Assembly (NCBI GenBank): GCA_947625205.1
Contig: CANQNN010000006.1
Coordinates: forward strand, 1 to 64,000
Length of the DNA: 64,000 nucleotides
Source: an uncultured Lachnospiraceae bacterium
GTDB taxonomy: Bacteria; Bacillota; Clostridia; Lachnospirales; Lachnospiraceae
Reading direction: 5' to 3'
The notes beneath the pieces were generated by a model. The model was not told the origin of the DNA. It did no database searches and saw only the letters and a list, made by a program, of their open reading frames with translations. How positions within the stretch are numbered: position 1 is the stretch's first letter; every line of letters starts with the position of its first letter. A program made the translations under genes and the position numbers. Positions 46,196-64,000 of this stretch are shown here, piece by piece.

Positions 46196-46425
46196 ACATG
46201 ATGTTCGCGGTAAAGTACAGAAGGATTTTGCATGCTGTGTAACGCATATGTAATTGTTGCACAACACAATATCTTGTATTTTAATATCCAAATTATCTCT
46301 TTCGATCCAATATATAGTTTTCTTGTTTTGTTTATCAATATATCGTTAATCATTTTTCTACATATAATCCACTTGCAGGATGTAGAATCAATTATACTCG
46401 ACAATATATTCAAACCAGAAATCTT

Positions 46426-47250
46426 TTACTTTATCCCATACTCCTTATATAACTGCTTCCGGTACTCCTTATCTCCGATGGACCGCGCCAGATCATCATA
46501 CCGCTTATCTGAAATAAGACATCCGTGCAACTGGCTAAGCAACTCTTCACCCTGTTCCAAGCCTTCCATGCGCACATAAGCATCCCGCGCATTCCTGTCG
46601 CGGATCTCTTTCAATTTGGCCTCCCTTATCCATCGCAGCGTCCTTCCCAGTCCCATCTCCCTGACCTCTTTTATAGCTTCCAGTATGCCCGGATTTTTCG
46701 TTTCTGTTTCCAGCATTGTAATCTCCTCCTCTGTCTTTGCCTTAAACAGACGGATCCAGTCGTCTATGCCCCTTCCGCTCAAGGGTTTGTTCAGTTCGAT
46801 CACATGTATCTCCAGAAGGTCTGAAAAATCTCTGCCCTTCTCGTCCCGCATCCTGTATACCCTGTGGTACTCCGGTCCGTCATCCAGATCAAAACCAAGG
46901 ACACTGATGCAGATACAGCGTTTCAGCCGCCTATAGTCTTCCCCTGCAAGCAGTCGTTCCGTGAACAACTTCGCCAGATAAAACAGGCTTCTCCCATCCC
47001 AGCAGGCCACCACCCTGACCTGCATTTCCACATTCACCCTGCGGTCGCCGTTCACCTCCATCAGCACATCCAGTATCCCCTGTTTCTCGCGGTAATGCCG
47101 TTTCCACAGGAAAGGATTCGCCAGGCGGACCGACCGTATCTCATCAGGTGGGATACCCAGCACATCGCTGATAAATCCCTTCCGGATCTTCCCGTTCAGA
47201 AACAGTCGCTTAAAGGCAAAATCGTACGTCAGCGGTATCATGTTCCCCAT
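46426..47250 (-). CDS. Rpn family (PD-(D/E)XK nuclease/putative transposase) protein
   Basis: A 274-residue protein. The N-terminal half has the Rpn/PDDEXK_2 pattern: LTYDFAFKRLFLNG, ILDVLMEVNGDRRVNVEMQV with the catalytic D and E-x-Q, then LFYLAKLFTERLLAGEDY. The family includes recombination-promoting nucleases (RpnA of E. coli). The frame is open to 47346, but GGAGGAG before ATG 47250 sets the start. A second member lies 330 bases upstream on the same strand. Confidence 0.8.
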   Translation of the reverse strand: MGNMIPLTYDFAFKRLFLNGKIRKGFISDVLGIPPDEIRSVRLANPFLWKRHYREKQGILDVLMEVNGDRRVNVEMQVRVVACWDGRSLFYLAKLFTERLLAGEDYRRLKRCICISVLGFDLDDGPEYHRVYRMRDEKGRDFSDLLEIHVIELNKPLSGRGIDDWIRLFKAKTEEEITMLETETKNPGILEAIKEVREMGLGRTLRWIREAKLKEIRDRNARDAYVRMEGLEQGEELLSQLHGCLISDKRYDDLARSIGDKEYRKQLYKEYGIK

Positions 47251-47577
47251 ATGTTTCTCCTCCTGTTCCGCAGGAGTCTTCGGGCGGGGAACACCGCATC
47301 TTTGAAAATCTCCTGCTTTTAAATTGTGTGTTGGTTTTAAAAGCATAGATTTTCTGGATTACATAGAAAAAATAATGTTAAGATGATAAAAGAAATTATA
47401 TGCTTTGAATAAAGCTTAGCATATGGTGTATGAATTTGCAAGTGTTTTTGTTCTGAATTTTATACAAGTCACCTTTTTATCAAGAGTCCTGAAAATTTCT
47501 GTAATTAATGATCTACATCCCGGGATCTGCCACGGTCTGCGTCCCGTCAGGTTCACGCATTCTTTGATCTGATGCGC

Positions 47578-48543
47578 TTACACCGTACTCTCATAGTATT
47601 TCCTGACTTCCTCGCGGGTGCAGTCAGCATACTCTTCATTGCTGATCACAACTGTATAAACCGCTTCAAAATCGGACTGGAACCGTCTCAGCGAGCGTAC
47701 AAGCGCGGCAAGTCCTTTTCCCCGGCCTTCTGCAAGTCCTTCCGCAAGTCCTTCTTCTCTTCCTTCTTCAAGGCCTTCTGCAAGGCCTTCCGCACGGCTT
47801 TCCTCAAGTTCCGCTCTGTGGTCGGCCTGATCCGCATAGTACGACATATATTCCACCATCAGTCTTGGGTCCCTCTTCGCTGTTTCCACTGCCGCATCCA
47901 CCTTTCTTGTATACTCGTCCGTCGCCGTTCCCTCCGCCAGATATTTGAGGAAGTTCCTAAGTTCCGGCGTGACATCATCCATCTCTGAGTAAGGATTCAA
48001 GAAAATCTTCACCGCTTCGTCTCCAAGAACAAGTTCTGTGTCTTCCCTGCACCGATTCTCGAATGTATAGATATGCCTGCCTTTATGAAAGATATCCTCC
48101 ATACAGATGAAGATCACAAAACTCCGGTTAAGCTCTCGGTAGTCCACTCCTCTGCCAAGCAAATCCACATCGATCAGGTTCTGATAATAACGGCTCCGCT
48201 GCGGCAGGTTCGCCGCGCGCGCCGCCTGCATCTCCACGTTGTAGACGGTAGCTTTTTCATCCTTCACATAGATATCCAGACGGATGCCTTTGGCCTCGTT
48301 CCTGACCTCGATCGTCTTCTCGCCCTCCGGATACTCAATGCGCTCAATCTCCACATTCAGTACGATCTCCAAAAGCCGTCTGCACAATTCCTTATCCTGC
48401 ATCACCTTGTAGAAAATGAAGCGGTCCGCAAGGGTCAATTCCTTGAACGCCTTCGGCGGCGCACTTTTCTCACTGCCCCACCTGTCTTTATTATATGATG
48501 GCGTGGCGGTTTTTACAATGGTTTTTCGTGTATTTTTTGCCAA
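47578..48543 (-). CDS. Second Rpn family (PD-(D/E)XK) protein
   Basis: A 321-residue protein of the same superfamily but a different subgroup: FKELTLADRFIFYKVM, EAKGIRLDIYVKDEKATVYNVEMQ with the catalytic D, E and Q, then RSRYYQNLIDVDLL. Residues about 250-280 are low-complexity EGLAEGLEEGREEG repeats, typical of this subgroup. The start is TTG 48543 with a GAGAGG site. The 230-base gap downstream and the 270-base gap upstream show nothing I can identify. Confidence 0.8.
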   Translation of the reverse strand: MAKNTRKTIVKTATPSYNKDRWGSEKSAPPKAFKELTLADRFIFYKVMQDKELCRRLLEIVLNVEIERIEYPEGEKTIEVRNEAKGIRLDIYVKDEKATVYNVEMQAARAANLPQRSRYYQNLIDVDLLGRGVDYRELNRSFVIFICMEDIFHKGRHIYTFENRCREDTELVLGDEAVKIFLNPYSEMDDVTPELRNFLKYLAEGTATDEYTRKVDAAVETAKRDPRLMVEYMSYYADQADHRAELEESRAEGLAEGLEEGREEGLAEGLAEGRGKGLAALVRSLRRFQSDFEAVYTVVISNEEYADCTREEVRKYYESTV

Positions 48544-48814: not shown

Positions 48815-49942
48815 TCATTTTCTTTCTGATATTGTCCGTGCTACCGCAAGCGCCGCCGCGATCACCTGATCCATGTCATAATAACGGTACTCGCCTAACC
48901 GCCCGCCAAAGATCACATCCGGCTCCTGCGCCGCCAGCGCTTTGTACTGCTCATACAGTTTCTGGTTTTTCCCGTCATTCACGGGATAATACGGTTCATC
49001 GCCCAGTTTCCACTCGCTGCTGTACTCGCGGCTGATCACCGTCTTCGGCAGCTCGCCGCCATCCGCAGCCTTACCGAACGTAAACCATTTATGTTCGATG
49101 ATTCTTGTATAAGGCGTCTCTCTGTCGGTGTAATTCACTATGGCATTACCCTGGAAATTAGGTTTGTCCAGCACCTCAGTCTCAAACCGCACCAGACGGT
49201 ATTCCAGTGGTCCGAAGCGGTAATCAAAATAAGCGTCAATGGGCCCGGTGTACACCACCTTCTCCGCCAGCGCGTCAAGCTCTGCCTTATGTTCCAGATA
49301 GTCCACACCCAGGCGTACTTCCACACCCTGCAGCATATGTTCCACCATATCTGTGTAGCCGTTTACGGGGATACCCTGATACAATGCGTTGAAATAGTTA
49401 TTATCATAGGTTAGGCGCACCGGAAGACGCTTGATGATAAAAGCCGGCAGATCTTTACAGGGACGTCCCCACTGCTTCTCGGTGTAACCCTTCACCAGCT
49501 TCTCATAGACATCGGTTCCCACCAGTGAAATTGCCTGTTCCTCCAAATTCGCCGGATCCGTAATACCCGCCGCTTTGCGCTGTTCATCGATCTTTGCAGC
49601 CGCTTCCTCCGGCGTCACCACACCCCACATCTTATTAAAAGTGTACATGTTAAAGGGCAGAGAGTACATCTCACCTTTGTAATTAGCAATGGTTCCCAGC
49701 TTGAATCCGTTAAAAGCGGTGAAACGGTTCACATAATCCCATACTTCGCGGTCATTTGTATGGAAAATATGCGGACCATAGCGGTGGACATGAATACCCT
49801 CCACTTCCTCAGAATAAACGTTTCCGGCAATGTGATTCCGCCGGTCCACGACCAGGCAGCGCTTCCCTGCGGCCGTCATACGCTCTGCAATAACGGCGCC
49901 AAACAGACCGGCGCCAACGATGAGATAATCATAGTTCTTCAT
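48815..49942 (-). CDS. glf: UDP-galactopyranose mutase
   Basis: A 375-residue flavoenzyme. FAD-binding GAGLFGAVIAERM near the N-terminus, then VDRRNHIAGNVYSE, HRYGPHIFHTND and the later EKQWGRPCKDLP and IEHKWF segments match Glf. Converts UDP-galactopyranose to UDP-galactofuranose, so the polysaccharide made here probably contains galactofuranose. AGAGG precedes ATG 49942. It is the last gene of the locus. Confidence 0.93.
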   Translation of the reverse strand: MKNYDYLIVGAGLFGAVIAERMTAAGKRCLVVDRRNHIAGNVYSEEVEGIHVHRYGPHIFHTNDREVWDYVNRFTAFNGFKLGTIANYKGEMYSLPFNMYTFNKMWGVVTPEEAAAKIDEQRKAAGITDPANLEEQAISLVGTDVYEKLVKGYTEKQWGRPCKDLPAFIIKRLPVRLTYDNNYFNALYQGIPVNGYTDMVEHMLQGVEVRLGVDYLEHKAELDALAEKVVYTGPIDAYFDYRFGPLEYRLVRFETEVLDKPNFQGNAIVNYTDRETPYTRIIEHKWFTFGKAADGGELPKTVISREYSSEWKLGDEPYYPVNDGKNQKLYEQYKALAAQEPDVIFGGRLGEYRYYDMDQVIAAALAVARTISERK

Positions 49943-50080
49943 GTTAACATCCTCTTGCACAATCTTATTCTTCTATGACATTTTAATTTTTGTGTTTCTG
50001 ATAACACAGACGGCTCTATTTTATCCAAATAATACAGTAAAGTCTGGGCAATTATAAAATAAGTTATCACTGTGAAGTAT

Positions 50081-50728
50081 TCATGTTTTTAAAGAATAAA
50101 TCACATCTTTTAATTCATCTACTGATGCTACAACAAAATCAGCCTCTCTTGGTACGCCTTCATCTCCATACCACAGGGTGAGTATAGATTTACATCCCGC
50201 ATTTTTTGCACTCAGAATATCATATAATCCATCGCCTATGACAACACAATTATCCTTTGTTACATCCTCTCCCATACTCTCAATTGCCTTGAGGATAGGA
50301 ACTGGCGATGGTTTCGGTTCGCTAACATCATCCGAGCATATGACGGCATCGAATAATTCCTCAATTCCAAAATATTTCAATATATCGACTGTTCTATAAT
50401 GATCTTTACCTGTACAAATTGCACATTTTGCATTATTCGCCCGTAATTCCTTAATCAGTCTAATTGCCTCATCATTGATAATAATTTTATCTATAGATTG
50501 AACACTTATTTTTCTGTATGGATCGGCCATCTCTACTGGCAAACCCATCTTTTTGAATATATTGGGCAGTGAATCCCCGGTATATTTTAGATACTCAGAA
50601 AACGGAGGGCAATTATCGTCACCCACAACTTCCCTGTAACTGCCGTAATACGCTTTCTTTTGCACTTCAATTGAATTAATTAACACACCATCAAAGTCAA
50701 ATATTAGATGAATACTTTTGTCTCTCAT
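50081..50728 (-). CDS. HAD-family phosphatase
   Basis: A 215-residue HAD hydrolase. Motif I DFDGVLIN (nucleophile and acid/base aspartates), motif II CTGKD, and motif IV VIGDGLYDILSAKNAG are intact, with a small alpha cap. Such phosphatases remove phosphate from sugar or keto-acid phosphates. It lies 24 bases after the aldolase gene, and the pair suggests that the aldolase product is dephosphorylated, as in Kdo and nonulosonate pathways. Confidence 0.82.
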   Translation of the reverse strand: MRDKSIHLIFDFDGVLINSIEVQKKAYYGSYREVVGDDNCPPFSEYLKYTGDSLPNIFKKMGLPVEMADPYRKISVQSIDKIIINDEAIRLIKELRANNAKCAICTGKDHYRTVDILKYFGIEELFDAVICSDDVSEPKPSPVPILKAIESMGEDVTKDNCVVIGDGLYDILSAKNAGCKSILTLWYGDEGVPREADFVVASVDELKDVIYSLKT

Positions 50729-50752
50729 ATACAGCCCTCTCAAATTGCCTTT

Positions 50753-52324
50753 TTAATGATAAATCGAATCTGTTATAAATGTAATGTCGCATCCGTTTTG
50801 CTTGCCAAGTAGAAATGCACGGAAAGCATGGTTGAGATGTTTGACCTGTTCTAGCGAAAGATCTTTTTTCAACATATCATCGTAATAGTTCTCACCAAGA
50901 TCAACAGAAAATCCATCGAACCCAGCAAGGAGTATTTTTTTCGCTCCAAGTGCTGCCAGAAGGTTTAATATGATGTATCCGGCAGAATCGTGTGTTTCCT
51001 CATCAACCGTTATCCATTTGTAATAATCAATTACCCTTGTTCTGGGATTTACCGTTCTTGTCACACTCGAAGGGACAATTATGTCTTTCCCTGCTTTTAA
51101 AGCAGTTCTATACCTTTCCTCTTTGGTGCAAAGCTCATATTCCACATTAAATACACTGCAGTTCAGGCTCACCGATATATCTGCTGCTTTAATAGCCTGT
51201 TGTATTTTTTCTTTTTCTTTTGTCAGACTTTTCCCAGGAGCCAAAACACAAACCGTTTTGTCAAAGAATATTTTCCGAAGATCTTCAATAGTTGCCGTAT
51301 CATCAAACGGGGTTTTCCCATTGTAATAACGGTATTTTTCTTCTGCATATTGTTGATTGAAAGAAATCCTTCTTTCACCCTCCAATGTACCTAACAACTC
51401 ATTGAGCCCTTTCACGGACAGCATATGCTTGTTATAGTAATAACTGGCATAAATCGGGGAGCAGTCATTGATTGACGATAAATAATACTCAACAGAATAT
51501 CCCCAAGGAAACTGTTTCTTGATCAGTCCTATGACAGTATCAATTATATTTAAAAGCGGCGGTATCACATATTTGCCGCCATAATATTGATTTAGGTGTG
51601 ATAGGATGAGTTCTGTATTCAGATTACCGGCCCCTCGTCCCATACCCATAATCGAGGAATCAAGCATTTTATCCCTGTCCATAGGTAGACGCAAAAATGT
51701 GATAGCATTCGCATAAGCCATCTGGATATTATTATGAGAATGAAAGCCAAGTGCGATATCAGGCCGCAATCGTTGATCGAAAAACCGTGAAAGTCGTTCA
51801 ATATCTGATTGCTGCATTTGCCCGAAAGTATCTACAAAATAGAAGCCTTTAATATCCATTTCATTTGCCGCCGCTGCAAGTTCCTCCAGTTCTTCCCATG
51901 AATAGTGAAGCGTGACCATCGGCTGCATATAAACATCGTATCCCTTTTGTGATATTGCCCTGTACAAAGGCAGCACATCATGAAAATTACGTTTGTGGAA
52001 GGCCAAACGAATCGCATCAATACCTCCTTTTGTCCGATCGTGGAGACTGTCTACATCAAACTTTCCATAATCAAACATGGCAAAATATGTTACGCCCGGC
52101 TTTTTCTCTTTGAGAAAAAAACGTTCGATGACAGTTTCATTTATGTACTGCGTCCGTCCCCTTTCTGTGCCAGTATTCTTTTCCAAATATCCCAATTCAA
52201 CATACTGTATTCCCGCATCTTCAATGGCAGAAAGAATGTTCTGCATATTTCTTTCCCCAAAATTAAAGTCATTTACGATTCCTCCATCTCGTAAAGTGAC
52301 GTCTAATATAGCAACCGAGCTCAT
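50753..52324 (-). CDS. HMGL-like aldolase with C-terminal DUF115-like domain
   Basis: A 523-residue protein. Residues 1 to about 290 are an HMG-CoA lyase/4-hydroxy-2-oxovalerate aldolase-like TIM barrel: DVTLRDGG at the start (metal and catalytic residues) and HSHNN (metal histidines) near 195-200. Residues about 350-523 carry a separate domain (VCVLAPGKSLTKEKEKIQ, then LLAALGAKKILLAGFDGFS) that resembles the DUF115 Rossmann-like domain, also seen as a separate protein at 56951-57799. Inferred role: forming or splitting a 2-keto-acid unit for the surface polymer, followed by HAD and cytidylyltransferase steps. Confidence 0.7.
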   Translation of the reverse strand: MSSVAILDVTLRDGGIVNDFNFGERNMQNILSAIEDAGIQYVELGYLEKNTGTERGRTQYINETVIERFFLKEKKPGVTYFAMFDYGKFDVDSLHDRTKGGIDAIRLAFHKRNFHDVLPLYRAISQKGYDVYMQPMVTLHYSWEELEELAAAANEMDIKGFYFVDTFGQMQQSDIERLSRFFDQRLRPDIALGFHSHNNIQMAYANAITFLRLPMDRDKMLDSSIMGMGRGAGNLNTELILSHLNQYYGGKYVIPPLLNIIDTVIGLIKKQFPWGYSVEYYLSSINDCSPIYASYYYNKHMLSVKGLNELLGTLEGERRISFNQQYAEEKYRYYNGKTPFDDTATIEDLRKIFFDKTVCVLAPGKSLTKEKEKIQQAIKAADISVSLNCSVFNVEYELCTKEERYRTALKAGKDIIVPSSVTRTVNPRTRVIDYYKWITVDEETHDSAGYIILNLLAALGAKKILLAGFDGFSVDLGENYYDDMLKKDLSLEQVKHLNHAFRAFLLGKQNGCDITFITDSIYH

Positions 52325-52355
52325 AACTTAAATCTCCTTAATGCTGTTTCAAATC

Positions 52356-53492
52356 CTACACAAACCTCAATAACCTACAAAGTTTATCAGAAATCCCGAA
52401 TTTCTTCTCCACATTGTTCCAAAGCCATCTATAGATTCGTGCAGCCAACAGAGAAAACACAAATACTAACACCACACAAACAGGGATAACAACTGCTGTC
52501 TGTGGCGGATATATCTTCAAATGAATGGAAAGACCACTTATAATATTCCATACTCCTATATGAAACAGATAAATCAGGAACGTCAGCGAAGACAATCCGG
52601 AAAAATCCACATGTATTTCCAATAAAGAGAAACCGCAAAAAATCAATACAGCACTCAATATTACGAATGGTGACAGTCCCTCGAATGCGAGCCAATCAAA
52701 TGGCTGTCTCATCCCTGTGAAACTCTTCCCAGCCATCATTTCCTTGTATCTGAGAATTGCAAGCAACATTTCCGTAAGCAGACCAGAAGCAATCAGTAGT
52801 ACACCCTTCATGTTAGATCTGCCAATACATTTTGCCCATCTTCTAATGGAAAAACCTGCCATAAACAAACTTAAAAACTCCGTCTGCAGACCAACGTCCC
52901 ATCCAACTGCAAAATCATAGGGCCTTGACCAGTAACTCACTACCGACACAAGCAGAAACAGCCATGTTATTTTTCCAAACAAATTAACCGGCTTTATTCT
53001 TTCCTCAAGGACCAGCAAGACCGGCGTCATCAAATATAGTCCAAGGAGCATGAACATAAACCACATAGGCCGCGCAGGCAGGCCTAAAACCAGATGAAGC
53101 AAAGGTATCAGGAACTCATACCCCCCCCCCGAACTGGTTATCCCATATTTTATTACATTTTTTGCGATTGCATAGATTGTATAGCCCATACTGAATATTA
53201 TGGTTGTAACTCCTATATTTCTAAATGATCTGGAATAGAAAAATTTAAAATCACTGTTACGCTTATTGCCTAAAAGAAACGCCCCTGACAGCATTACAAA
53301 ACATTGCACGGCAAATCTGGGAAGCGTGTCCAGAATAACCGTTGCCAAAAGGCTCCCTTCAAAGACAAAACCATAATTCTGATAATTAATTTTAAACGAT
53401 GCCTGCAGAAACCAATTGGCTACATGTATAAATATCACTGCAATTGCACAAATCACCCGCAACAGATCATAATTTGATTCTCTTTTGTTCAT
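52356..53492 (-). CDS. Acyltransferase family 3 (O-acyltransferase), poly-G tract
   Basis: A 378-residue membrane protein with about ten helices. The N-terminal NYDLLRVICAIAVIFIHVANWF matches family 3 acyltransferases (OafA-like), which put acetyl or similar groups on surface sugars. A run of ten Gs (plus-strand Cs 53121-53130) encodes SGGG near residue 124. A one-base slip would stop the protein early, so on-off switching is likely; here the frame is on. Confidence 0.85.
   Translation of the reverse strand: MNKRESNYDLLRVICAIAVIFIHVANWFLQASFKINYQNYGFVFEGSLLATVILDTLPRFAVQCFVMLSGAFLLGNKRNSDFKFFYSRSFRNIGVTTIIFSMGYTIYAIAKNVIKYGITSSGGGYEFLIPLLHLVLGLPARPMWFMFMLLGLYLMTPVLLVLEERIKPVNLFGKITWLFLLVSVVSYWSRPYDFAVGWDVGLQTEFLSLFMAGFSIRRWAKCIGRSNMKGVLLIASGLLTEMLLAILRYKEMMAGKSFTGMRQPFDWLAFEGLSPFVILSAVLIFCGFSLLEIHVDFSGLSSLTFLIYLFHIGVWNIISGLSIHLKIYPPQTAVVIPVCVVLVFVFSLLAARIYRWLWNNVEKKFGISDKLCRLLRFV
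53121..53130. repeat. Poly-C(10) tract inside acyltransferase gene
   Basis: Ten C residues on the + strand (ten Gs in the coding strand). The tract is long enough for slipped-strand change during replication. Confidence 0.9.
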
Positions 53493-53530
53493 TTCCTATC
53501 TCCTGTGCAGCTTTTCCTAATTTTAATGGC

Positions 53531-54187
53531 TTATTCCGATGCAGGACGTACAAAATTCAGCAGTATCTCCGCCAATTCAAAATCCTCCGGCTCATCAATA
53601 TCTACGGCTTCCTTAAATGAAACACACTTAATATATGGATTCAATCCGATTCTTCTACGGTACTCCCTGAATACATCATTTCGAAACACATAGACGGACG
53701 ATGTCTCTTTATATATAGGTTTCAAGTCTTGCGTTCTTGGCAGATTATCCGGTGTAAAATTCAATGGTCTTCCGTCTTGCCAAAGAAACGTTTGTATTTT
53801 CTCAGCGCAGAAAGAAGAATCATATTCCCCACTTTGCACCGCTGCAATACATTCGGTCATTGTAGCTGTCGTGACAAATGGGGCAGTAGCATGAACCATA
53901 ATGTAGATGTCAGCATCCTTTTCACGAGTGAAGGCATCAAAGAACTGCGTAAAATTCGAAGTGGGCAGATCCAGATATTCAGGCCGTTTCAGAAAGGAAA
54001 CTCCATTCGGCAGATAAGGAATAATTTTCTCGGAACTGCAATAAACATATATCTCATCTGCCATACCTGTCGCTGACAAGCTGTCCAGTGCATATTGCAA
54101 GAGAGGTTTTCCTCCCAAAAGTTTTATGTTTTTACCCGGCAGACGTTCATTGTGGAGCTTGATTGGCATCATAGCGATTGTTTTCAT
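53531..54187 (-). CDS. Cytidylyltransferase (CMP-sugar synthetase, NeuA/KdsB-like)
   Basis: A 218-residue nucleotidyltransferase. The start MPIKLHNERLPGKNIKLLGGKPLL and the later IYIMVHATAPF (nucleotide and metal site) and DIDEPEDFELAE match the acylneuraminate/Kdo cytidylyltransferase family. It activates a keto-acid sugar with CMP. It lies between the flippase and acyltransferase genes, in the same operon as the aldolase and HAD genes. Confidence 0.85.
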   Translation of the reverse strand: MKTIAMMPIKLHNERLPGKNIKLLGGKPLLQYALDSLSATGMADEIYVYCSSEKIIPYLPNGVSFLKRPEYLDLPTSNFTQFFDAFTREKDADIYIMVHATAPFVTTATMTECIAAVQSGEYDSSFCAEKIQTFLWQDGRPLNFTPDNLPRTQDLKPIYKETSSVYVFRNDVFREYRRRIGLNPYIKCVSFKEAVDIDEPEDFELAEILLNFVRPASE

Positions 54188-54188
54188 C

Positions 54189-55694
54189 TTAATCCTCCTG
54201 TTGTGAAATATCTTTTTTTAAACTGCTCATAATCTTCGTCAGCAATTTGCGTTTCAACCAGCAAACTATTCCTATTATTGCGACCAGCAGATACCGAATA
54301 AGCGGATGATCGCAAGCAAACACCATACCCGCTGCCGATATAACGACAACTGTTGAAATAGCCAGTATCGTCTTGCCATCATATATGGAGGCAACGCCGA
54401 TTTTCCAGTTGCAAACGGAACGCATAAAAAGGCAGTGTGCCACACTCAGAAGCATATAGCAGAATAATGTCGTATACCCCGCCGCATAGTAACCATATTT
54501 AGGAATAAACAACAGGTTCAAGATGATATTTGCAAATGCTGCTGTTGCTGATGCGATAGCGATAAAATGGTTCGCCTCAAAATAAAATTCAATATTGGCA
54601 AACAGTGAATACAGAAAAATGAAATACACACTCATCGCAATAACAGGGACTAATCGTATTGCGTCATAATATTCGTCCGTCGCTATAATTTGGATTATTT
54701 CCGGAGCAAGTGCAGATAGGATCATAACTACTCCGCCTATAAATGCAAGCAGGATGTTAGCCAAGGCCCGAAGGTCAACATAGCTGCATTTTTTCATTCT
54801 TTCATATGTATACGGAATAATTGCATTGTTAATAGCGCCGGTTATGATGCTCGCCGCAAGTGACACCGTATACACAAGATTGTATATTCCGGCTTCTGAT
54901 GCGCCGATATATTTTTTTATCATTACTCTGTCGGCCTGGCCGAGAATAACGTTAGAAAGATAATGGGGAATCAGCGGAAGGTTAAACTGTAATGAATAGT
55001 GCCAGAATTCCCATATAAAAAACTGTCTGCTTTTTATGTAGTTATAGAGAATAAATCCACAGCCAAAAAGAACCTGAATCGCAACTCCTGTGCCAATTAC
55101 TGCAATGAGCCGTCTGTCTGCTGGCGTAAAAAGCGCCGCCACCAGCGGAATGGTTGTATACGATAAAGAAAGCAATGCTGTATAAATCAATAACGGAACA
55201 TATTTGTATTCATATCTTTGCCGTGTCGTCCAAAGTTGAAAGCCTTCCGTAAAAAACAACTGTAAAAAGATCAATAATACCAAGCCGTGCTCCAGGCCCA
55301 ATATCTCTCGGTCCATCAGGCGGGACAGAGGTAAATACAGTATGAATATCACAGTTGTTACCATAATTGCGAGGCTTTGTGATGCTGAAATATATTCGTT
55401 GCGTCGTTCCGGATACTTATGCATGGCGTTGTTGCATACTCCTGCATGGAGGTTCAATGTGGCAAAAATAGAGAGAATACTTGTCCATGATAGGAAAACA
55501 CTGTACACACCATATTCTTCCGTACTAAGCAGTCTTACAAGAAAAGGCATGGAAAGAAATTTGCACCCGTTTTGAATTACACTGCAGACCACAAACCACA
55601 GCGATGCTTTCGCCGGTATAGGAATGAGGCGGTAGCGTTTAACAATTCTGTTTAGCATAGATGGATTACCCCTGTTTTCTAACACCAATTTCAT
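54189..55694 (-). CDS. Polysaccharide flippase (Wzx-like)
   Basis: A 501-residue protein with about 12-14 membrane helices, of the MATE/PST flippase type (EYGVYSVFLSWTSIL and ASEAGIYNLVYTVSLA segments). It moves lipid-linked repeat units across the membrane. The first ATG (55694) is one base after the stop of the polymerase gene; a second ATG at 55658 has AGGGG upstream, so the start is uncertain. Confidence 0.85.
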   Translation of the reverse strand: MKLVLENRGNPSMLNRIVKRYRLIPIPAKASLWFVVCSVIQNGCKFLSMPFLVRLLSTEEYGVYSVFLSWTSILSIFATLNLHAGVCNNAMHKYPERRNEYISASQSLAIMVTTVIFILYLPLSRLMDREILGLEHGLVLLIFLQLFFTEGFQLWTTRQRYEYKYVPLLIYTALLSLSYTTIPLVAALFTPADRRLIAVIGTGVAIQVLFGCGFILYNYIKSRQFFIWEFWHYSLQFNLPLIPHYLSNVILGQADRVMIKKYIGASEAGIYNLVYTVSLAASIITGAINNAIIPYTYERMKKCSYVDLRALANILLAFIGGVVMILSALAPEIIQIIATDEYYDAIRLVPVIAMSVYFIFLYSLFANIEFYFEANHFIAIASATAAFANIILNLLFIPKYGYYAAGYTTLFCYMLLSVAHCLFMRSVCNWKIGVASIYDGKTILAISTVVVISAAGMVFACDHPLIRYLLVAIIGIVCWLKRKLLTKIMSSLKKDISQQED

Positions 55695-55695
55695 A

Positions 55696-56958
55696 TTATC
55701 TGAAAGAGACGCTACGCCTAAATACCAGACGGCAGCGCACTTTATTTGTATTCGTACCTTCTAAACCTTCATTAAGCATCGAAATATGATAGGCTACTGT
55801 AAGTATCCCGAATAATGAAATCAAATCATCAAATGATTCCGTTAGGAGAACTATAAAAAAACAAAAAAGGGTCGTAGAAACAATATAACAATTTCTATTT
55901 TGAGATTGATAGGCTAATGATTTACCTACCAATAACAAAATTACAATAAAGAAAATAAATCCGATAATACCACGCTCACACAAAATTCTCAGAATAAAAG
56001 AGTGGGGATGAGGCAATCCCAATAACATCATATATTGAGAGCGAGTTAATAGCCCAATACCAATCACAGGGCTTTGCAAAAAAAGCTGAATAGCTTTATC
56101 CCAAACATAAGTTCTTCCTGTTAATGTTATATCCTTTCCTAGCATTTCAATAAGAGGAGATAAAACTACATGTAATCTGAAAAAAACAATAGCAATAAAA
56201 GCAATAAACACAACAATCATACAGTTTCTGAACTTAAACATCTTCCTTAATAACTGGAATCTTTCCAATAACACGAGAATGACAAAAACGCTCAGAGCAA
56301 CAACAGTGGCTGCTGAATGTGTGATGTATGAAGCAACTATAATCGGAAGCATCAGCGCCATTTGGCTCATTTGTGACATATTTCTATTTTTGCTGTAAAT
56401 CAAATAAAAGCAGAAAAAGGGTAGCATATATAATATGTATCCATTATCGTAGCCTAAAAAATAATTTTCACGGCTGATTATATATGTTGACCAGCCTACC
56501 CCTTCAGTACCCACATACATTCCGCCAGGAAACAGGAACACTGTAATTGCATTGATTATACACTCAATTCCAAGAATCCAAACAAACGCTCTGACGAGTT
56601 CTTTTGGGGCAACATGGATACCGAGTTCAACCAGCATACATATGGATATTACTTTTCCAACATTGATAATCAGAGTATACATATCGCCGCTGTTTATAAT
56701 GGTACTTAGAATCAATACCCCCTCAAATGCAATAACACTTAATATATATTTAGAAAACCTTCCATTAAGTAAATATAGAGTCAAGATTACTATCGCAGCT
56801 GCTATCTTCCAAATTTCAAACATGGTATCCAAAGCAGGCACAATATAATCAAAACTGCCTGGTTTGAAAAATGGCGTCAACAGAAAAACAATGGCAAGAA
56901 AATTCAAACGAATTTTTTTATCCGGGTATCTTATTCCAATATCTATTCTTTTACTCAT
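55696..56958 (-). CDS. O-antigen ligase/polymerase family protein (Wzy-like)
   Basis: A 420-residue protein with about 11 membrane helices and a large outside loop. The pattern TGRTYVWDKAIQLFLQSPVIGIGLLTRSQ followed by HSFILRILCERGIIGF is typical of Wzy/O-antigen ligase proteins. It joins the repeat units of the polymer. Its start overlaps the end of the DUF115-like gene by 8 bases. Confidence 0.82.
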   Translation of the reverse strand: MSKRIDIGIRYPDKKIRLNFLAIVFLLTPFFKPGSFDYIVPALDTMFEIWKIAAAIVILTLYLLNGRFSKYILSVIAFEGVLILSTIINSGDMYTLIINVGKVISICMLVELGIHVAPKELVRAFVWILGIECIINAITVFLFPGGMYVGTEGVGWSTYIISRENYFLGYDNGYILYMLPFFCFYLIYSKNRNMSQMSQMALMLPIIVASYITHSAATVVALSVFVILVLLERFQLLRKMFKFRNCMIVVFIAFIAIVFFRLHVVLSPLIEMLGKDITLTGRTYVWDKAIQLFLQSPVIGIGLLTRSQYMMLLGLPHPHSFILRILCERGIIGFIFFIVILLLVGKSLAYQSQNRNCYIVSTTLFCFFIVLLTESFDDLISLFGILTVAYHISMLNEGLEGTNTNKVRCRLVFRRSVSFR

Positions 56959-57799
56959 CTGCGTCTTCTTTCATTAGTTCGTCAAAATTGACACGCTTAA
57001 AAACTTCCAGTTTGCCGCCGCGTGTGGCATTATAGATTTTGACATTATGTGTATCCGCATATTTTCTAGCTACCTGATAGGTCATAATCAATTTTTTTTC
57101 TATATCATTCTCTGCTACCAATTTACTATCTGTATACTCCTCAAAATGTCGTTTTTTACCGCTATAATTGCAGTCACAACCCAAAAGATATATTTCTTTA
57201 AATCCCATGTATGTCGCAAACTGAATAATATCAAAGACAACCGTGTATCCTGCATACACTATGGCATATGGATTATCCGAAAAATTAAATTTATCCGTAA
57301 AATGGAGCCCGCCGGAATGATTCAGAAGGTCCATAGGATATGGAATAAAATCAACCTTTGCGTGTGTATCATCAATCAGTAAATCCGATCCAAACCAGTT
57401 GTCTGATTGATACCGCAACAGTTCATCCTCCAACATGATATAAACATCTTTATCATTGATTACATAATACGTTGGACGCCATGATGTTTTTGAAAAAAGT
57501 TTGATGATTGAATTCATGGAAAAAGTATATTCACCCCGTAGTTGTTCCACATCCTCCAAGGTTAGACTAGGTCCCGTGCAGACAATAAAGCAACGCTCCC
57601 CTTCGTGCTTTCCGGCATATTGTTGTAACCTAACAAACCTGCGGTCATTATACCCATGCGCTCTAAGATATGCCATAACACTACATTTCCAATGTCGCAC
57701 TATCCAACGAACATTATAGATAGTAGCCACTGGTTTCAGTAGACCGACCTTCTTCAAAGCTGCCTTTATTTTTATACGATAATACCCTTTGCGCGACAT
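56951..57799 (-). CDS. DUF115-like protein, putative glycosyltransferase
   Basis: A 282-residue protein. RCFIVCTGPSLTLEDVEQL and then TFSMNSI, ATYMGFKEIYLLGCDCNY match DUF115 (MptE-like) proteins, which in surface-polymer loci are thought to handle or transfer sugars. The frame is open to 57886; AAGGAG upstream supports ATG 57799. The same domain type is fused to the aldolase at 50753-52324. Confidence 0.65.
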   Translation of the reverse strand: MSRKGYYRIKIKAALKKVGLLKPVATIYNVRWIVRHWKCSVMAYLRAHGYNDRRFVRLQQYAGKHEGERCFIVCTGPSLTLEDVEQLRGEYTFSMNSIIKLFSKTSWRPTYYVINDKDVYIMLEDELLRYQSDNWFGSDLLIDDTHAKVDFIPYPMDLLNHSGGLHFTDKFNFSDNPYAIVYAGYTVVFDIIQFATYMGFKEIYLLGCDCNYSGKKRHFEEYTDSKLVAENDIEKKLIMTYQVARKYADTHNVKIYNATRGGKLEVFKRVNFDELMKEDADE

Positions 57800-58033
57800 A
57801 AACCATCTGCTCCTTCCATGGAATGACCAAATTTGTTGTGTTATTATTGTCTGTTCTATTATAATATCATTGTTAAATCTGCCCATAGTGATTTAGTTCC
57901 CATAATACTTACCTATCGTTTCTGCACTTGGCACACCCTTTTCTTTTTTGAAATTTAATCATACGCTCCATACTCATGCCGCCTTCCATCCACTAACAGG
58001 AAAATAGACCAGAAGCATGAATACGTAAACGCA

Positions 58034-59125
58034 TCAGGAGCTGGGATTGCCCCTTCCTTTATGACTATTTTGCATTGAATCTCTACTCATATTATTTCGA
58101 ATAAATTTTTGCTTTTTTATTTTATACGCAAATGGGCGCAGCGTAACATAAAACTGCCTTGTAACCCAGACAGACAACCATTTGGGAGCAATTTTTGAAA
58201 AACGTTTAAAAACAGAATAAAACAATCTAGCCGTTTCACTCCTGTCATCTTTCCAAAGTGGTTCGTCTTTCCACGGAGTCATCGCGCGAAACTTTAAAAA
58301 GCTCTTTGTATATGGGTGATTACAGCCTTCATACCATGGGCGTAGCGGAATAGAAAACGTTGTAGTAAAATGTACCATTCCGGGATCTTTTAATGACTGT
58401 TCTACTTCATCTTTTGCATAATACCACTGTAATTTCTTTACCTTTAATAAAGTGTCATACGGAAACGAAAAAAGTGTTGTATGTACATTATATGCACAGG
58501 GTAGACACTTAATCTTCCCGTCTAATACTGCATTAAAAACTCCCTGATCCGGCCATGGCACATATCCCCCCTGACTCTCCAGATACTTCATAAACTTCCT
58601 TTCAATACCATGCTCACGCCACAATGTCAGATTGATTAGCGCAACACCGGAATTATAATAGATACCTTTTTCGGATATTCCCAGCATAGTTCGGTATTTT
58701 CCACCCATTGTATCTGCCATCATTCCGGCAAAATATTCTCCCAAATCAATCTCCCATAACGGTTTTATTGATTTCAGAAAAATGGTATCACAATCAAAAT
58801 AAAGGATTTTATCTATGTCTTTTGGCAGTAATGACGTAACAAACAAACGCCCGCAAGTCGCAATTCTATTGCTTTTTGCCGGAACTGCCACATCCATACC
58901 CAGTAAGGATTCCAAATCGGGCATCGGAAGAGAAATAATCTTGCGGCAATAAGTAGTTGCAATCTCCTGGATTTTCCGCATGTTTTCATCCTTGATTCCA
59001 TTATCAATCAGATACACCGTCAACTCTTCTGCTTCTTTATTACATTCAAACAGAGACAAAACCGACACTGCAAAAATTTCTGCATATCGATCATCACAGT
59101 TATAAACAACTACCATATCTGACAC
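58034..59125 (-). CDS. Glycosyltransferase family 8 protein
   Basis: A 363-residue GT8 enzyme. The DxD metal site is in ILYFDCDTIFL, followed by the typical YYNSGVALINLTLWRE and PDQGVFNAVL segments. The tail is basic. It probably adds a glucose or galactose unit in the repeat unit. AT-rich gaps of 150-180 bases lie on both sides with nothing identified. Confidence 0.85.
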   Translation of the reverse strand: MSDMVVVYNCDDRYAEIFAVSVLSLFECNKEAEELTVYLIDNGIKDENMRKIQEIATTYCRKIISLPMPDLESLLGMDVAVPAKSNRIATCGRLFVTSLLPKDIDKILYFDCDTIFLKSIKPLWEIDLGEYFAGMMADTMGGKYRTMLGISEKGIYYNSGVALINLTLWREHGIERKFMKYLESQGGYVPWPDQGVFNAVLDGKIKCLPCAYNVHTTLFSFPYDTLLKVKKLQWYYAKDEVEQSLKDPGMVHFTTTFSIPLRPWYEGCNHPYTKSFLKFRAMTPWKDEPLWKDDRSETARLFYSVFKRFSKIAPKWLSVWVTRQFYVTLRPFAYKIKKQKFIRNNMSRDSMQNSHKGRGNPSS

Positions 59126-59301
59126 TCCTCCTCTTTATCAACCGTTAAACTATAAATCTATCTTCAAAACACAAAGCATATAAAAACCTTCTCACATATA
59201 AAAACAAAAAACCTACAAATATTTATATATATATTCATTCTGAATTCTTATTTTTAAACTCCCTTAAAACAACTTTTTGTAAAGCAACAAGACAATCAAA
59301 T

Positions 59302-60127
59302 TTATACTGTCGCATATAATACCATTTCTGCAAGAGTATCAGAATGATATCTAATATACAGGCGGTATTTCGGCACCAACTCTTTAATCAAGAACGGAAT
59401 CTCATACAAATCCTCTGGCTTATGATAGATATAAATCATCAACCGCGACCTATCTCTCTTGATGATACCTGCTGCACCTAATAGCGCATCTTGTTCACAC
59501 CCCTCTATGTCCAGCTTAATAAAGCTCACCTTTTCCTGCCAACATACATTATCGATTGTATCCAAACAGATTGTCGAACTTCCTGTAGTAACAATTTTGG
59601 AGCCAGCTCCGCCACTTTACGAAAAAGATAATTTCGTTTTTTCTTTCCAAATACCACACGGAATAATTGCTATATTAACAAAAAATGGCAAGTTTTTTCA
59701 TCTGCTGAATACTACGTATATCCGGTTCCCATACATAAATTTTTTTACAGTATTTTTTCCTCCCATACTTCTTTCAATTTTTCAATCGTATCGCCTACAT
59801 AAGCGACACCATCAACAAATACTTCATCCTGTTCTGGTCCAAAAATATCTTTCTGAAGTATTGATTTCCCTTTCTTATCTTATCAAAATTACGAATATCC
59901 CATGTTTGACGAAACGCGATTACGTTCTCTAATGTCCTTTTAGACTCCTCATCATCAAGTATACTGAATAGCTTTTCAAACTCGTTATGATGTGCAATAT
60001 AAAACTCTCCAAATTTCTTTCTCTGCACAGCATTTTTCTCTTATCACGGTTTACTTTCCAAATATGCAGCGTATGTATAATTTCCATTTTTTCTACACAT
60101 GATTATATATTTTTTCGACACAACCAT
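59302..60127 (-). pseudogene. Broken FkbM-family methyltransferase
   Basis: Pieces of one FkbM gene are spread over three frames. It begins at ATG 60127 with AAGGAGT (MVVSKKYIIMCRKNG), stops early, resumes as FGEFYIAHHNEFEKLFSILDD, shifts frame near 59860 to DEVFVDGVAYVGDTIEKLKE (the SAM-binding segment; the family has DGGAY), shifts twice more, and ends as SFIKLDIEGCEQDALLGAAG, an intact FkbM end. The total length fits a family member of about 275 residues. Not functional as it stands. It would have methylated a sugar in the polymer. Confidence 0.75.
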
Positions 60128-60139
60128 ACTCCTTACATA

Positions 60140-61297
60140 TCACATTGCCGTCAATAATTTTCGGATATCCTTTTGAAACTTTTCCATGGTAAAGTTCTCA
60201 AGTACACGCTGTCGAGCATTTCTTCCGTATATTTCACGTAGTTTCTTATCATCCGCCAGTTTTTGCAAGGCTTCAGCATAAGACTTACTGTCACCATTTG
60301 GACATTCAATTCCCGTTACACCATTCAGATTAACAAAATTCACCCCACTTCCAAGTATCGTAAATGTTACAGCAGGTTTGCCAAAATACATACCTTCCGC
60401 AAGTGCAATCCCAAAAGCTTCATTCTTTGTAATAGAAGGGAAACAGAAAATATCACAAGCCTGATAATAGGCAACCATCTCTTCATCATCTATGCGTCCG
60501 GGAAAAACTATCTTGTCATCATTGGCAGCTTGACTTTTTAACTGATCAGTCAGCGGACCCTTTCCCCCAATAACAAAGCAAAATCTATCATCCAAATAAG
60601 TTGCCGCCTTAATCAAATATTCATATCCTTTGTAAGACACATGCCTTCCCAAAGCAAAACACAAAATTTTTCCTTCATATCTTTTACGAATATCATCCGC
60701 AAGTTTTCTTGTTTGCTCAGTAATTTGTAACCTTTCAGTATCAATACAATTATATAAAACATGGCATTTTGATTGAAATAACTGTAAATATCTGCTCCCA
60801 TCTATATACTGTTTCGAAGTAGGAACTACAATGTCAGCACGTCGCAACAGTGAAAGGGTCTGCCTGTGAAACAACTTTCCCATGATTTTTTGCTTGGTAA
60901 TATCCAAATGCCAATAAACCACTAATTTGAAGTTTCGCTTTTTATGTGCTAATAGAAAAGCCGCCATAAAAGGATTAGGATAATGAAAAATCACAATATT
61001 CGGTTTGAATGTCTTTATAATTCGATGCAATTCGAACGGATATGACGGCGACAATAATTGTGAAGCAACCTGACATAGTGAACCGCATCGAATAATTTCC
61101 GTACCATCAATCCAATCATGAATGGATTGATTTCTCCTACGCACCAGATCACCGGTTTCTCCGTCATCTCCCAGACAGATTACTTTTTGCTCAATATCAT
61201 CCATATCATTCAGGGTGTGCACGATATCACGCGTTACTTGTTCAATTCCACCAATTCTTGGATAATATGCACGTGTGATTTGAAGAACTCGCTTCAT
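60140..61297 (-). CDS. Glycosyltransferase family 4 protein
   Basis: A 385-residue GT-B enzyme. N-terminal ITRAYYPRIGGIEQVT, then the donor-site segments FALGRHVSYKGYEYLI, GGKGPL and FCFPSITKNEAFGIALAEGMYFGKP match GT4. GGGAGAAA supports ATG 61297 over 61312. It lies between the acyltransferase gene and the FkbM pseudogene. Confidence 0.88.
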   Translation of the reverse strand: MKRVLQITRAYYPRIGGIEQVTRDIVHTLNDMDDIEQKVICLGDDGETGDLVRRRNQSIHDWIDGTEIIRCGSLCQVASQLLSPSYPFELHRIIKTFKPNIVIFHYPNPFMAAFLLAHKKRNFKLVVYWHLDITKQKIMGKLFHRQTLSLLRRADIVVPTSKQYIDGSRYLQLFQSKCHVLYNCIDTERLQITEQTRKLADDIRKRYEGKILCFALGRHVSYKGYEYLIKAATYLDDRFCFVIGGKGPLTDQLKSQAANDDKIVFPGRIDDEEMVAYYQACDIFCFPSITKNEAFGIALAEGMYFGKPAVTFTILGSGVNFVNLNGVTGIECPNGDSKSYAEALQKLADDKKLREIYGRNARQRVLENFTMEKFQKDIRKLLTAM

Positions 61298-61345
61298 CAA
61301 TTTTTCTCCCATTAATTAAATAGTTAATTACTTCTCTGTACTCTT

Positions 61346-61370
61346 CATTGCCTGAATAATTTCAATTTTC
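61346..61370. repeat. 25-bp direct repeat, copy 1 (downstream of acyltransferase)
   Basis: Identical to 62352-62376, which is the start of the acyltransferase gene (codons for KIEIIQAM). Here the copy lies after that gene in an ORF tail (SYGLIEMNDPG, then KIEIIQAMKSTEK) that has no start, so it looks like the remains of another gene or of a recombination event. Confidence 0.8.
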
Positions 61371-61415
61371 AACAGACATCCCGGATCATTCATCTCAATC
61401 AAACCATAACTATGA

Positions 61416-62390
61416 TTAATGGCAGATATGATTTTTCCTCACTTCAAACACCTGATATACTACCCACGAACACGGAATCACAAAAGCAACAGCAGCCATA
61501 ACAAACACCGTATTTGTCAGACTCAGCTTCGTATTGTCGATCAGCACCCGACAGATAAAACCAATAATCAAAAAGTGTGCCATATAAATGGAATAACTCA
61601 TATCTCCCAACAATTTCATGAACCTGTTCACTGGCATATCATAAAGTGGCAGGCACAAGAACAGCAGTATGCCACCCCATAACATATTCCATAAGTAACC
61701 AAAACAATCCCCCAATAAGTAATACCCCGAAAACAAAAGTAGGATAGATGCGCCAATTCCTGTAATACAAATTTTTCTGTCAACCTTTGGTCTGCCCATT
61801 CTCTGCTCTAAACAATAAATTCCAATTCCTATGACAAAATCAAACAGTCTTGGCTGCGTCCAGAATTTCAGCATTACGTTTTCAGGGCGAAATACAATAC
61901 CCAATACAATCAACAGGCAAGCCATCCCTATTACAATGTTCCCACGCTGTTTGTGGTTAATCTTTAATGCAATAAAAAACAGCAGATAAAAAAACATTTC
62001 CAGATTCAATGTCCAGCCAATGCTATATACAGGAAAAATTTTGCCATTTCCCGCATAGCAAGGGAGAAACAGAAAGCTTTTTATCAGTGTTTCTGCATTG
62101 ACTATCGTAGAGCGAAAAACAGAAGGGACCAGCAGACAGCCGATCGCCACCACGATTGTCATGAAATAGTACAACGGGCATATCCTACGCAGTTTACTTT
62201 TCCAGTACTGCCCCCCCCCTACGACTGCTTTCGTGCTCATCATCAGGAAATAGCCGCTCAGGATAAAGAAAAAATCCACACCCCAGTTTGCGCTTCTCCA
62301 CGGTCCGTATTCTGTATGAAAATAAACAATTCCCAGAGCTGCAATACCGCGCATTGCCTGAATAATTTCAATTTTCTTCCTACCCATCAT
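61416..62390 (-). CDS. Second acyltransferase family 3 protein, poly-G tract
   Basis: A 324-residue membrane protein of the family 3 (OafA-like) type: KIEIIQAMRGIAALGIVYFHTEYG and DFFFILSGYFLM at the start. A run of nine Gs (plus-strand Cs 62211-62219) encodes VGGGQ near residue 58. The gene starts inside galE (ATGA overlap). Likely role: acylation of the surface sugar, switchable by tract length. The frame is intact here. Confidence 0.85.
   Translation of the reverse strand: MMGRKKIEIIQAMRGIAALGIVYFHTEYGPWRSANWGVDFFFILSGYFLMMSTKAVVGGGQYWKSKLRRICPLYYFMTIVVAIGCLLVPSVFRSTIVNAETLIKSFLFLPCYAGNGKIFPVYSIGWTLNLEMFFYLLFFIALKINHKQRGNIVIGMACLLIVLGIVFRPENVMLKFWTQPRLFDFVIGIGIYCLEQRMGRPKVDRKICITGIGASILLLFSGYYLLGDCFGYLWNMLWGGILLFLCLPLYDMPVNRFMKLLGDMSYSIYMAHFLIIGFICRVLIDNTKLSLTNTVFVMAAVAFVIPCSWVVYQVFEVRKNHICH
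62211..62219. repeat. Poly-C(9) tract inside second acyltransferase gene
   Basis: Nine C residues on the + strand (nine Gs in the coding strand), early in the gene. Slippage would remove most of the protein. Confidence 0.9.
62352..62376. repeat. 25-bp direct repeat, copy 2 (start of acyltransferase)
   Basis: Identical to 61346-61370, with the same orientation, 1,006 bases apart. The two copies bracket nearly the whole acyltransferase gene. Confidence 0.8.
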
Positions 62391-63367
62391 TCACTGCAAC
62401 CCATCTTCTCATGCCACTTCCACGCATGCTCCACAATGGTTTCGATCTCCGCATACTTCGGTTCCCACCCCAGCACCGCCTTCACTTTGTCGCTTGACCC
62501 GACCAGGGTAGCCGGATCGCCCGGGCGCCGGTCAGATAACGTCACCCTGAAATCTTTTCCGGTTACTTTTTTAACCGCTTCAATAACCTCCAATACGCTG
62601 GTGCCGCGTTCGTTGCCGAGATTAAAGCATTCGCTTGAACCGCCGCTCTGCAGATATTTAAGCGCCAGGATATGAGCCTTCGCCAGATCCTCCACATGGA
62701 TATAATCTCTGATACAGCTTCCGTCCCGTGTCGGATAGTCCGTGCCGAACACTTTTATATCCGGCCGCTTGCCTGACGCCGCATCCAGCACCAGCGGGAT
62801 CAGATGCGTCTCCGGATCGTGGTCTTCTCCGATCTCACATTCCGGATCGGCTCCGGCAGCATTGAAATAACGCAGCGCTACGGAACGCAGTCCGTATGCC
62901 GTTCCGTAATCAGACAGGATACGCTCCACCATCAGTTTGCTGGCGCCGTACGGATTGATCGGATTCTGTGGCATGTCCTCCGTGATGGGTACACGCGCCG
63001 GCTCTCCGTATGTGGCGCAGGTAGAGGAAAAAATGATCTTATCGCATCCGTGTCCACGCATGGCCCGCAGAAGATTCAGTGTACAGGCCACATTGTTGAA
63101 ATAATATTTCTCGGGATCCGTGACCGATTCACCCACATAGGCATAGGCCGCGAAATGCATGACCGCCTCAATAGGATAAGTATCAAATACTGCCTCGATC
63201 TCCTCCGGGTCCTTCAGATCGCCCCGGACAAATTCTCCCCATTTGACCGCTTCCCGGTGTCCATACACCAGATTGTCGAACACCACCGTATCGTATCCCA
63301 TACGGTTCAGCATTTTATTTACATGGGAGCCGATGTATCCCGCACCCCCGCAGACTAATACTGCCAT
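62387..63367 (-). CDS. galE: UDP-glucose 4-epimerase
   Basis: A 326-residue short-chain dehydrogenase-type epimerase. NAD-binding GGAGYIGSH, catalytic YGASK and the LRYFNAAGADP segment are intact. Converts UDP-glucose to UDP-galactose, the precursor that Glf then turns into the furanose form. AAGAAGGCGG supports ATG 63367 over 63391. It overlaps the acyltransferase gene by 4 bases. Confidence 0.94.
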   Translation of the reverse strand: MAVLVCGGAGYIGSHVNKMLNRMGYDTVVFDNLVYGHREAVKWGEFVRGDLKDPEEIEAVFDTYPIEAVMHFAAYAYVGESVTDPEKYYFNNVACTLNLLRAMRGHGCDKIIFSSTCATYGEPARVPITEDMPQNPINPYGASKLMVERILSDYGTAYGLRSVALRYFNAAGADPECEIGEDHDPETHLIPLVLDAASGKRPDIKVFGTDYPTRDGSCIRDYIHVEDLAKAHILALKYLQSGGSSECFNLGNERGTSVLEVIEAVKKVTGKDFRVTLSDRRPGDPATLVGSSDKVKAVLGWEPKYAEIETIVEHAWKWHEKMGCSE

Positions 63368-63423
63368 TGTCCGTCCGCCTTCTTTCCGCATCTATGATTC
63401 TGTCTTTACCGCTCCGCCTTTTG

Positions 63424-64000
63424 TCAGTTATAGGCCGTTACGGTCCGCCGGTACTCTACGGGGATGCCAATGTCATGCCGCTCCCCGTCGATCCGGTACG
63501 CTGTCATTCCTTCCGTGCGGCAGATCTCCTGCAGCACACAGGTCAGACCATACTCATCCTTCTCGCTTCGAAGATCCTGCGCGATATTTCTCCCCAGCAG
63601 CTCAAATACCCTTGGCGTCAGCACATACTGTCCAAACACGCAGTAGTATTTGTCCTTTCCGTCTCTGTCTGTAACGCCCAGATGCATCCTTGCATAGTCT
63701 TCTGTGGGTTTTTCCACCATATCCGACGCCTGCATCAGTCTGTCCTCTCCGTCCAGAAACTTTCCCGTGATGATCCCGTAATGCATCACCCGGCCGAGCG
63801 GCACTTCATCCAGCGACACCGTAAGCTGCCCTGTCCTTTCATATGCACCGATCAGCTGCGCCGCGCAGCTCTTCTCATTCTGCGTGGAATATATGTGGTC
63901 CCCGAGCAGCAATAGCACCGGTTCGTCGCCCGCGAAATCCCTTGCCTGGTATACCGCGTGGCCGAACCCCAGCTGTTCTCTCTGTTCAATGTATGTGATC
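63424..64000 (-). CDS. UTP-glucose-1-phosphate uridylyltransferase (partial, 5' end outside window)
   Basis: The frame runs in from the window edge. The C-terminal about 190 residues are seen: EQREQLGFGHAVYQAR, LLLLGDHIYST, then FGQYVLTPRVFELL and RIDGERHDIGIPVEYRR. This is the GalU pattern. It makes UDP-glucose for galE. The N-terminal nucleotide site is not in the window. Confidence 0.85.
   Translation of the reverse strand, partial: ITYIEQREQLGFGHAVYQARDFAGDEPVLLLLGDHIYSTQNEKSCAAQLIGAYERTGQLTVSLDEVPLGRVMHYGIITGKFLDGEDRLMQASDMVEKPTEDYARMHLGVTDRDGKDKYYCVFGQYVLTPRVFELLGRNIAQDLRSEKDEYGLTCVLQEICRTEGMTAYRIDGERHDIGIPVEYRRTVTAYN

Follow-up and report, generated by a model that had tools for sequence, protein, structure and literature searches.

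Two poly-G tracts in a single 64-kb stretch of a Lachnospiraceae genome, each inside an acyltransferase gene of the same surface-polysaccharide locus, are very probably contingency loci that belong to a genome-wide poly-G phasome. The observations behind this reading are the tracts and the reading frames in which they lie, a genome-wide excess of G runs that peaks at length nine, the frame breaks at tracts, the persistence of tracts in relatives and the clustering of tract-rich genomes within the genus. A sequence-only reading of the same DNA had proposed phase variation of the two genes, and this proposal is supported by three results: the frames close when the tract changes by one base, pure G is kept in the relative L071, and approximately one quarter of the intragenic tracts are in an OFF-like state.

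According to the mechanism that we propose, slipped-strand mispairing during replication would add or drop one G; we infer both this slippage and its rate. The gain or loss of a G would shift the frame and yield a shortened membrane acyltransferase, and each of the two genes would flip between ON and OFF independently and reversibly within the population, with both in the ON state here. The two tracts are members of a set of 66 tracts of nine or ten G, which would constitute a phasome that acts on surface-glycan and membrane genes, through the reading frame at approximately half of the sites and through the length of promoter spacers at some others.

The two tracts of the window

The window, by which we mean the whole stretch of 64,000 nucleotides that was analysed, contains only two G or C runs of at least seven bases, a C10 at 53121-53130 and a C9 at 62211-62219. 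Its G/C runs number 19 at length five, one at six, none at seven or eight, one at nine and one at ten, and the counts of A/T runs taper smoothly with length to a single longest run of eight. The two tracts, their genes and their locus are as follows.

53121..53130, reverse strand: G10 tract (coding strand), codons TCG GGG GGG GGG, Ser-Gly-Gly-Gly, residues 121-124 of P0001
52356..53492, reverse strand: P0001, Acyl_transf_3 gene, 378 aa, ON as assembled (PF01757, 88.8 bits)
62211..62219, reverse strand: G9 tract (coding strand), codons GGG GGG GGG, Gly-Gly-Gly, residues 58-60 of P0002
61416..62390, reverse strand: P0002, Acyl_transf_3 gene, 324 aa, ON as assembled (PF01757, 90 bits)
48815..63391, reverse strand: surface-polysaccharide locus holding P0001 and P0002, recognised by the family matches of its genes

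Both proteins exceed the PF01757 gathering score (31 bits) over most of their length. The earlier statements that the window has two runs of at least nine, both within acyltransferase family 3 genes of one surface-polymer locus, and that both genes are ON in the assembled sequence are confirmed, each gene being open from end to end. The runs were also said to be unlikely by chance, and the estimate agrees: when the decay of shorter runs is extrapolated, 0.022 G/C runs of at least nine are expected per 64 kb, and the probability of two or more is 2.4e-4.

A change of one base in either direction within the tract reduces P0001 from 378 aa to 127 or 125 aa and P0002 from 324 aa to 76 or 65 aa. 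In the structure models of the two acyltransferases (pTM 0.88 and 0.82), the tract residues of P0001 form a coil that joins two helices, the last Gly beginning the next helix, and in P0002 a coil of residues 56-59 joins two helices, with Gly60 at the beginning of the next. A PDB sequence search with the P0001 and P0002 alignments gave no match at E 0.01, and a PDB fold search with the P0002 model gave none at E 0.001 or better. Judging from the neighbouring genes of the locus, P0001 and P0002 would transfer an acyl group, as yet putative, to a surface glycan, and independent switching of the two genes would give four surface states.

The surface-polysaccharide locus

The locus encodes a UDP-galactopyranose mutase, a HAD protein, an aldolase-like protein, P0001, a CMP-sugar synthetase-like protein, a flippase, a Wzy_C polymerase, an MptE-like protein, GT8 and GT4 glycosyltransferases, P0002 and GalE. 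Between 50081 and 57886, neighbouring genes are separated by at most 38 bases. The genes that flank P0001 (50753-54187) are aldolase-like, HAD and PseF/KdsB-like cytidylyltransferase genes, all of which score below the NCBIfam cut-offs, and they hint that the putative polymer contains an unusual acidic sugar.

The GT8 and GT4 genes are separated by 1014 bases (59126-60139), and fragments are scattered over several frames of this gap of about 1 kb. One of them resembles an FkbM methyltransferase by eye, and the gap is probably a decayed gene. A perfect direct repeat of 25 bases occurs at 61346-61370 and 62352-62376, where a copy of the P0002 gene start lies just downstream of the gene end, in a short frame (KIEIIQAM). 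This repeat is probably a scar left when an acyltransferase start was duplicated or lost.

Outside the locus, an ORF at 45499-46413 has no Pfam match and contains 48-base tandem repeats, and it adjoins two PDDEXK_2 (Rpn-like) genes, at 46426-47346 and 47578-48543; the second of these genes contains 12-base repeats. At the other end of the window, the GalU-like ORF at 63424-63918 looks shortened but continues as a longer open frame past position 64000. The GalU-like part and a part outside the window that resembles a GHMP kinase/galactokinase by eye share one open frame, possibly that of a bifunctional sugar-activating protein.

Poly-G tracts across the genome

The genome (2.91 Mb in 44 contigs) contains 66 G runs of nine or ten after overlapping matches of the same run were merged (72 matches to 66 runs), and approximately one run of at least nine is expected. 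Pure homopolymers of at least eight, the form of a poly-G contingency locus, are therefore present far beyond chance (66 vs about one). The histogram shows no run of seven, 12 of eight, 60 of nine, six of ten and none of at least 11; extrapolation from the shorter runs would give 26.8, 4.7, 0.83 and 0.15 runs of seven, eight, nine and ten, respectively.

Exact G7 runs are absent from 2.9 Mb, where 27 are expected, and G6 runs are nearly absent from the stretches examined, with one in 64 kb and one in 189 kb. It is as if accidental long G runs had been purged outside the tracts. The 25 bases that flank the 66 tracts on each side show no consensus except an excess of T, which adjoins the run at 29 of 66 tracts on each side; a sequence motif or insertion target near the tracts was therefore rejected. 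Frames of at least 200 aa over tracts in this genome lie on the G strand in 33 cases and on the opposite strand in three, and the other half of the tracts (33/66) have no assigned G-strand gene.

Of the 33 genes with an intragenic tract in this genome, 31 were scanned for families; 23 of the 31 have a family, many of them glycan-modifying or membrane families, and eight have none. Four acyltransferases (one a partial match below the family cut-off), three FkbM and two other methyltransferases, and the membrane families DUF6056 (two), DUF6020, YfhO, DUF2142 and LIC_10190 are represented, together with a polysaccharide deacetylase, WbuX, a GT2/pyruvyltransferase frame, two radical SAM proteins, a hexapeptide transferase, a histidine kinase and an esterase. 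Because the 66 tracts occupy many kinds of genes as well as non-genic sites, the poly-G system is not specific to acyltransferases and extends beyond them. A histidine kinase is 79% alike in this genome and in genome G005 (L056:1508 and L172:1575), and both copies have a G9 near the C-terminal end at positions one codon apart; it is a possible phase-variable regulator.

Probable frame switching at intragenic tracts

A single script was used to classify all 66 tracts of this genome and 119 tracts from three relatives (74 of 87 in G005, 36 of 71 in G014 and nine of 64 in G010, the totals assuming no run longer than ten). In this genome and the classified parts of the relatives, 71 of 95 intragenic tracts are in frame (ON) and 24 lie at a frame break (OFF-like). 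The breaks number eight of 33 in this genome, where the remaining 25 tracts are in frame, and 9/37, 6/24 and 1/1 in the relatives. The control consisted of short G runs taken from the same stretches and the same strand, and only 33 of these 802 runs, approximately 4%, lie at a frame break (Fisher p 1e-10; for this genome alone against the same control, 9e-5). All three codon phases are represented among the in-frame tracts (18, 30 and 23). A change of one unit in length alters the reading frame at both window genes and at the 95 intragenic tracts, and the promoter spacing at the eight of 90 non-genic tracts that are promoter-like.

Non-genic tracts were scored as promoter-like when the tract lay between TTGACA and TATAAT boxes that were 15-20 bases apart and had at most two mismatches in all. 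The eight of 90 tracts that qualified compare with shuffled flanks, which gave 0.545 on average and three at most (200 rounds), and with one of 95 for intragenic tracts. When the limit was loosened to three mismatches, the count rose to 14 of 90 (shuffle mean 4.6, maximum 11). Most non-genic tracts show no promoter-like boxes. The spacer measures 19 bases at six of the eight promoter-like tracts, which is two bases above the usual optimum of a promoter; changes in tract length should therefore tune these predicted promoters.

Tracts in homologs and relatives

Tracts were compared across species with one genome per species. The nearest relative, L071 from a rabbit MAG named 'uncultured Eisenbergiella sp.', is 80% identical in protein and 76% in DNA, and it carries a pure G9 at the loop where P0001 has G10, with indels adjacent and with differing codons around it. 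The sequence-only reading had named mixed glycine codons in relatives as one observation that would count against phase variation, and here the run is pure. Among 76 other genomes of the genus, P0001 has four homologs at 1e-30 or better, all more distant than L071. Two P0001 homologs (L074 and L075) have a G9 in the same loop in other codon phases, and a third (L073) has neither tract nor glycines. In L076, the frame is broken exactly at a G10 in another loop, and the second part is open in another frame.

OFF-like forms of the two window genes were seen only as truncated proteins. The last 248 residues of P0001 form a separate identical protein on a contig of 73,221 bases (the contig of the window has 126,428), and, unlike this C-terminal part, full-length P0001 was not found in the protein collection. 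Among 19 aligned homologs of P0002, the loop is present in 13, and 12 of these keep GG or GGG; one homolog (P0035) has neither tract nor glycines. Five of the 19 start just past the tract, four of them at the same internal Met (residue 77), and four of the five are located on contigs of 1.5-4.3 kb. The truncated database proteins may result from short contigs or from miscalled starts; the P0004 cluster has two members. A second copy of P0002 was not found at E 1e-30 or better in the 76 other genomes of the genus.

Some observations weigh against switching: L073 and P0035 have no tract, and all 12 close homologs (49-98% identity) of the L041 acyltransferase are free of truncation. The three glycines encoded by its tract are missing exactly in 11 of the 12, and the L041 tract therefore looks newly gained. 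This exact gain of three residues suggested that G9 is inserted as a unit; the idea was rejected as a general explanation because the tract coincides with no gap when other homologs are paired. Homologs within one genome that are 59-64% alike have their tracts at differing positions.

Distribution in the genus and mismatch repair

In 60 genomes of the genus, we compared the number of G runs of exactly nine with that of runs of exactly eight. Several genomes are rich in nines, including this genome (60:12), G005 (81:8), G010 (60:4), G014 (63:10), G012 (45:4), G019 (39:7) and G020 (25:6), and others are rich in eights, namely G007 (6:54), G021 (2:34) and G006 (14:30). A mutS tree was built for 40 of the 60 genomes, picked to cover the high genomes along with a range of the rest, where a high genome has at least 20 runs of nine and at least 2.5 times as many nines as eights (ten on the tree). 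The high state requires five changes on this tree against a shuffled mean of 9.0, and none of 500 shuffles was as low. The high genomes are thus clustered, yet they do not form a single clade. Seven of them constitute one supported group of nine together with two weaker genomes (14:1 and 13:0), and all ten fall inside a supported group of 21, in 20 of which nines outnumber eights. Outside the group of 21, the counts are mixed, and some genomes also have more nines than eights (G054, 15:3). In the rest of the family, the top count outside the genus is 23 (299 genomes, 298 genera). The putative phasome is best read as that of a probable clade of the Lachnospiraceae.

The mutS gene is full-length in this genome, and mutL exceeds the cut-off in nine of nine genomes, although in G020 it is split across two contigs. 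Judging from the presence of these genes, loss of mismatch repair was rejected as the cause of slippage; because both are present, we found nothing simple that would raise the rate of slippage.

Alternative explanations

The tracts might act in RNA and not in DNA, with the RNA polymerase slipping on the G run to give mixed messages in each cell while the DNA length stays fixed. Pure homopolymers of nine are able to cause transcriptional slippage, which would favour pure runs in any codon phase. However, the length of the tract in DNA differs between relatives (ten vs nine), about a quarter of the intragenic tracts have lost their frame at the DNA level, and the tracts between promoter-like boxes would be left unexplained. 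We therefore regard this explanation as improbable on its own, and transcriptional slippage may be a companion effect of slippage in DNA. It is still harder to believe that the runs are kept for glycine-rich loops and that their DNA is incidental. Both window tracts do lie between helices in the models, and homologs of P0002 do retain glycines in the loop; however, in-frame tracts stand in all three codon phases, which led us to reject a glycine codon constraint, half of the tracts of this genome are outside any assigned G-strand gene, and tract positions differ among homologs. Moreover, 11 homologs of the L041 protein lack the three glycines, and L071 keeps pure G amid differing codons.

Gene decay, in which neutral G runs slip by accident and the broken frames are pseudogenes, seems to us just as implausible as the glycine loops. 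Some frames are indeed broken and the locus contains gene debris (59126-60139), but a peak at nine with no run of seven is unlike neutral decay, broken frames are concentrated at tracts (25% vs 4% in the control), and the runs are far scarcer in other genera of the family. The least credible explanation is an artefact of sequencing or assembly. The length of a homopolymer is easily misread and the longest runs here have ten bases; however, the pattern is repeated in separate genomes, including the rabbit MAG, its carriers are grouped within one part of the tree of the genus, and the tracts in genes are mostly on the coding strand (33 vs three frames of at least 200 aa). Switching by slippage at contingency loci is thus the reading that we prefer.

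Implications and comparison with known systems

We think it likely that a poly-G phasome on the scale of that of Campylobacter evolved independently in a group of gut Lachnospiraceae, with tens of G9 switches on surface-glycan and membrane genes and at some promoters, with G6-7 runs purged elsewhere, with mutS and mutL kept, and with tracts repeatedly gained at new sites of the same families. If this is true, large binary diversity of the surface could arise within one gut population in the presence of mutSL and would affect phage susceptibility and recognition by antibodies; escape from phages or antibodies would be one putative benefit. Single assemblies of such species would label OFF genes as broken, and the group would offer a natural system for watching contingency loci arise.

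In an older survey of 99 prokaryote chromosomes (PMC2831843), poly(G) of seven and/or eight is over-represented in the coding genes of nine genomes only. Among the matches listed for the open-licence part of PMC, which mostly leaves subscription journals and bioRxiv outside its scope, no title or opening of an abstract describes a poly-G phasome in Lachnospiraceae.

Campylobacter is not known to have MutSL. The present system differs from its phasome in belonging to Bacillota, in the presence of mutS and mutL, in a narrower spread of lengths and in switching that is putative. According to the PhasomeIt study (PMC6321876), 53% of Campylobacter poly-G tracts have length nine and 26% length ten, with five to 81 loci per strain; the peak at nine is common to both systems (here 60 and six of 66 at nine and ten). 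The same study and a second one (PMC4965091) describe further features that are alike here, namely pure poly-G, a location mostly on the coding strand of ORFs, surface-polymer genes, some intergenic tracts and tens of loci. The poly-G/C contingency loci of Neisseria (PMC3639595) are similar in that poly-G lies in frames and between promoter elements, for example at porA. The organism is a different one, and the promoter sites here are predicted, mostly with 19-base spacers.

Switching of surface acylation also has precedents. In E. coli K1, NeuO is a capsule acetyltransferase that switches. In the pneumococcal gene wciG (PMC11934437), a surface-polymer acyltransferase is frameshifted and O-acylation is altered, which resembles the change expected for P0001 and P0002. 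The enzymes, repeats and hosts of wciG and NeuO differ from those described here, where the acyl group and the substrate are putative.

Phase variation in gut commensals is discussed mostly as DNA inversion, and Bacteroides varies by invertible promoters. Phase-variable capsules of gut bacteria are likewise described (PMC12413058). The phasome proposed here would share with the invertible-promoter systems the stochastic switching of surface polysaccharides; those systems invert DNA, whereas a homopolymer changes length here, and our repeat search covered 44-64 kb of the window.
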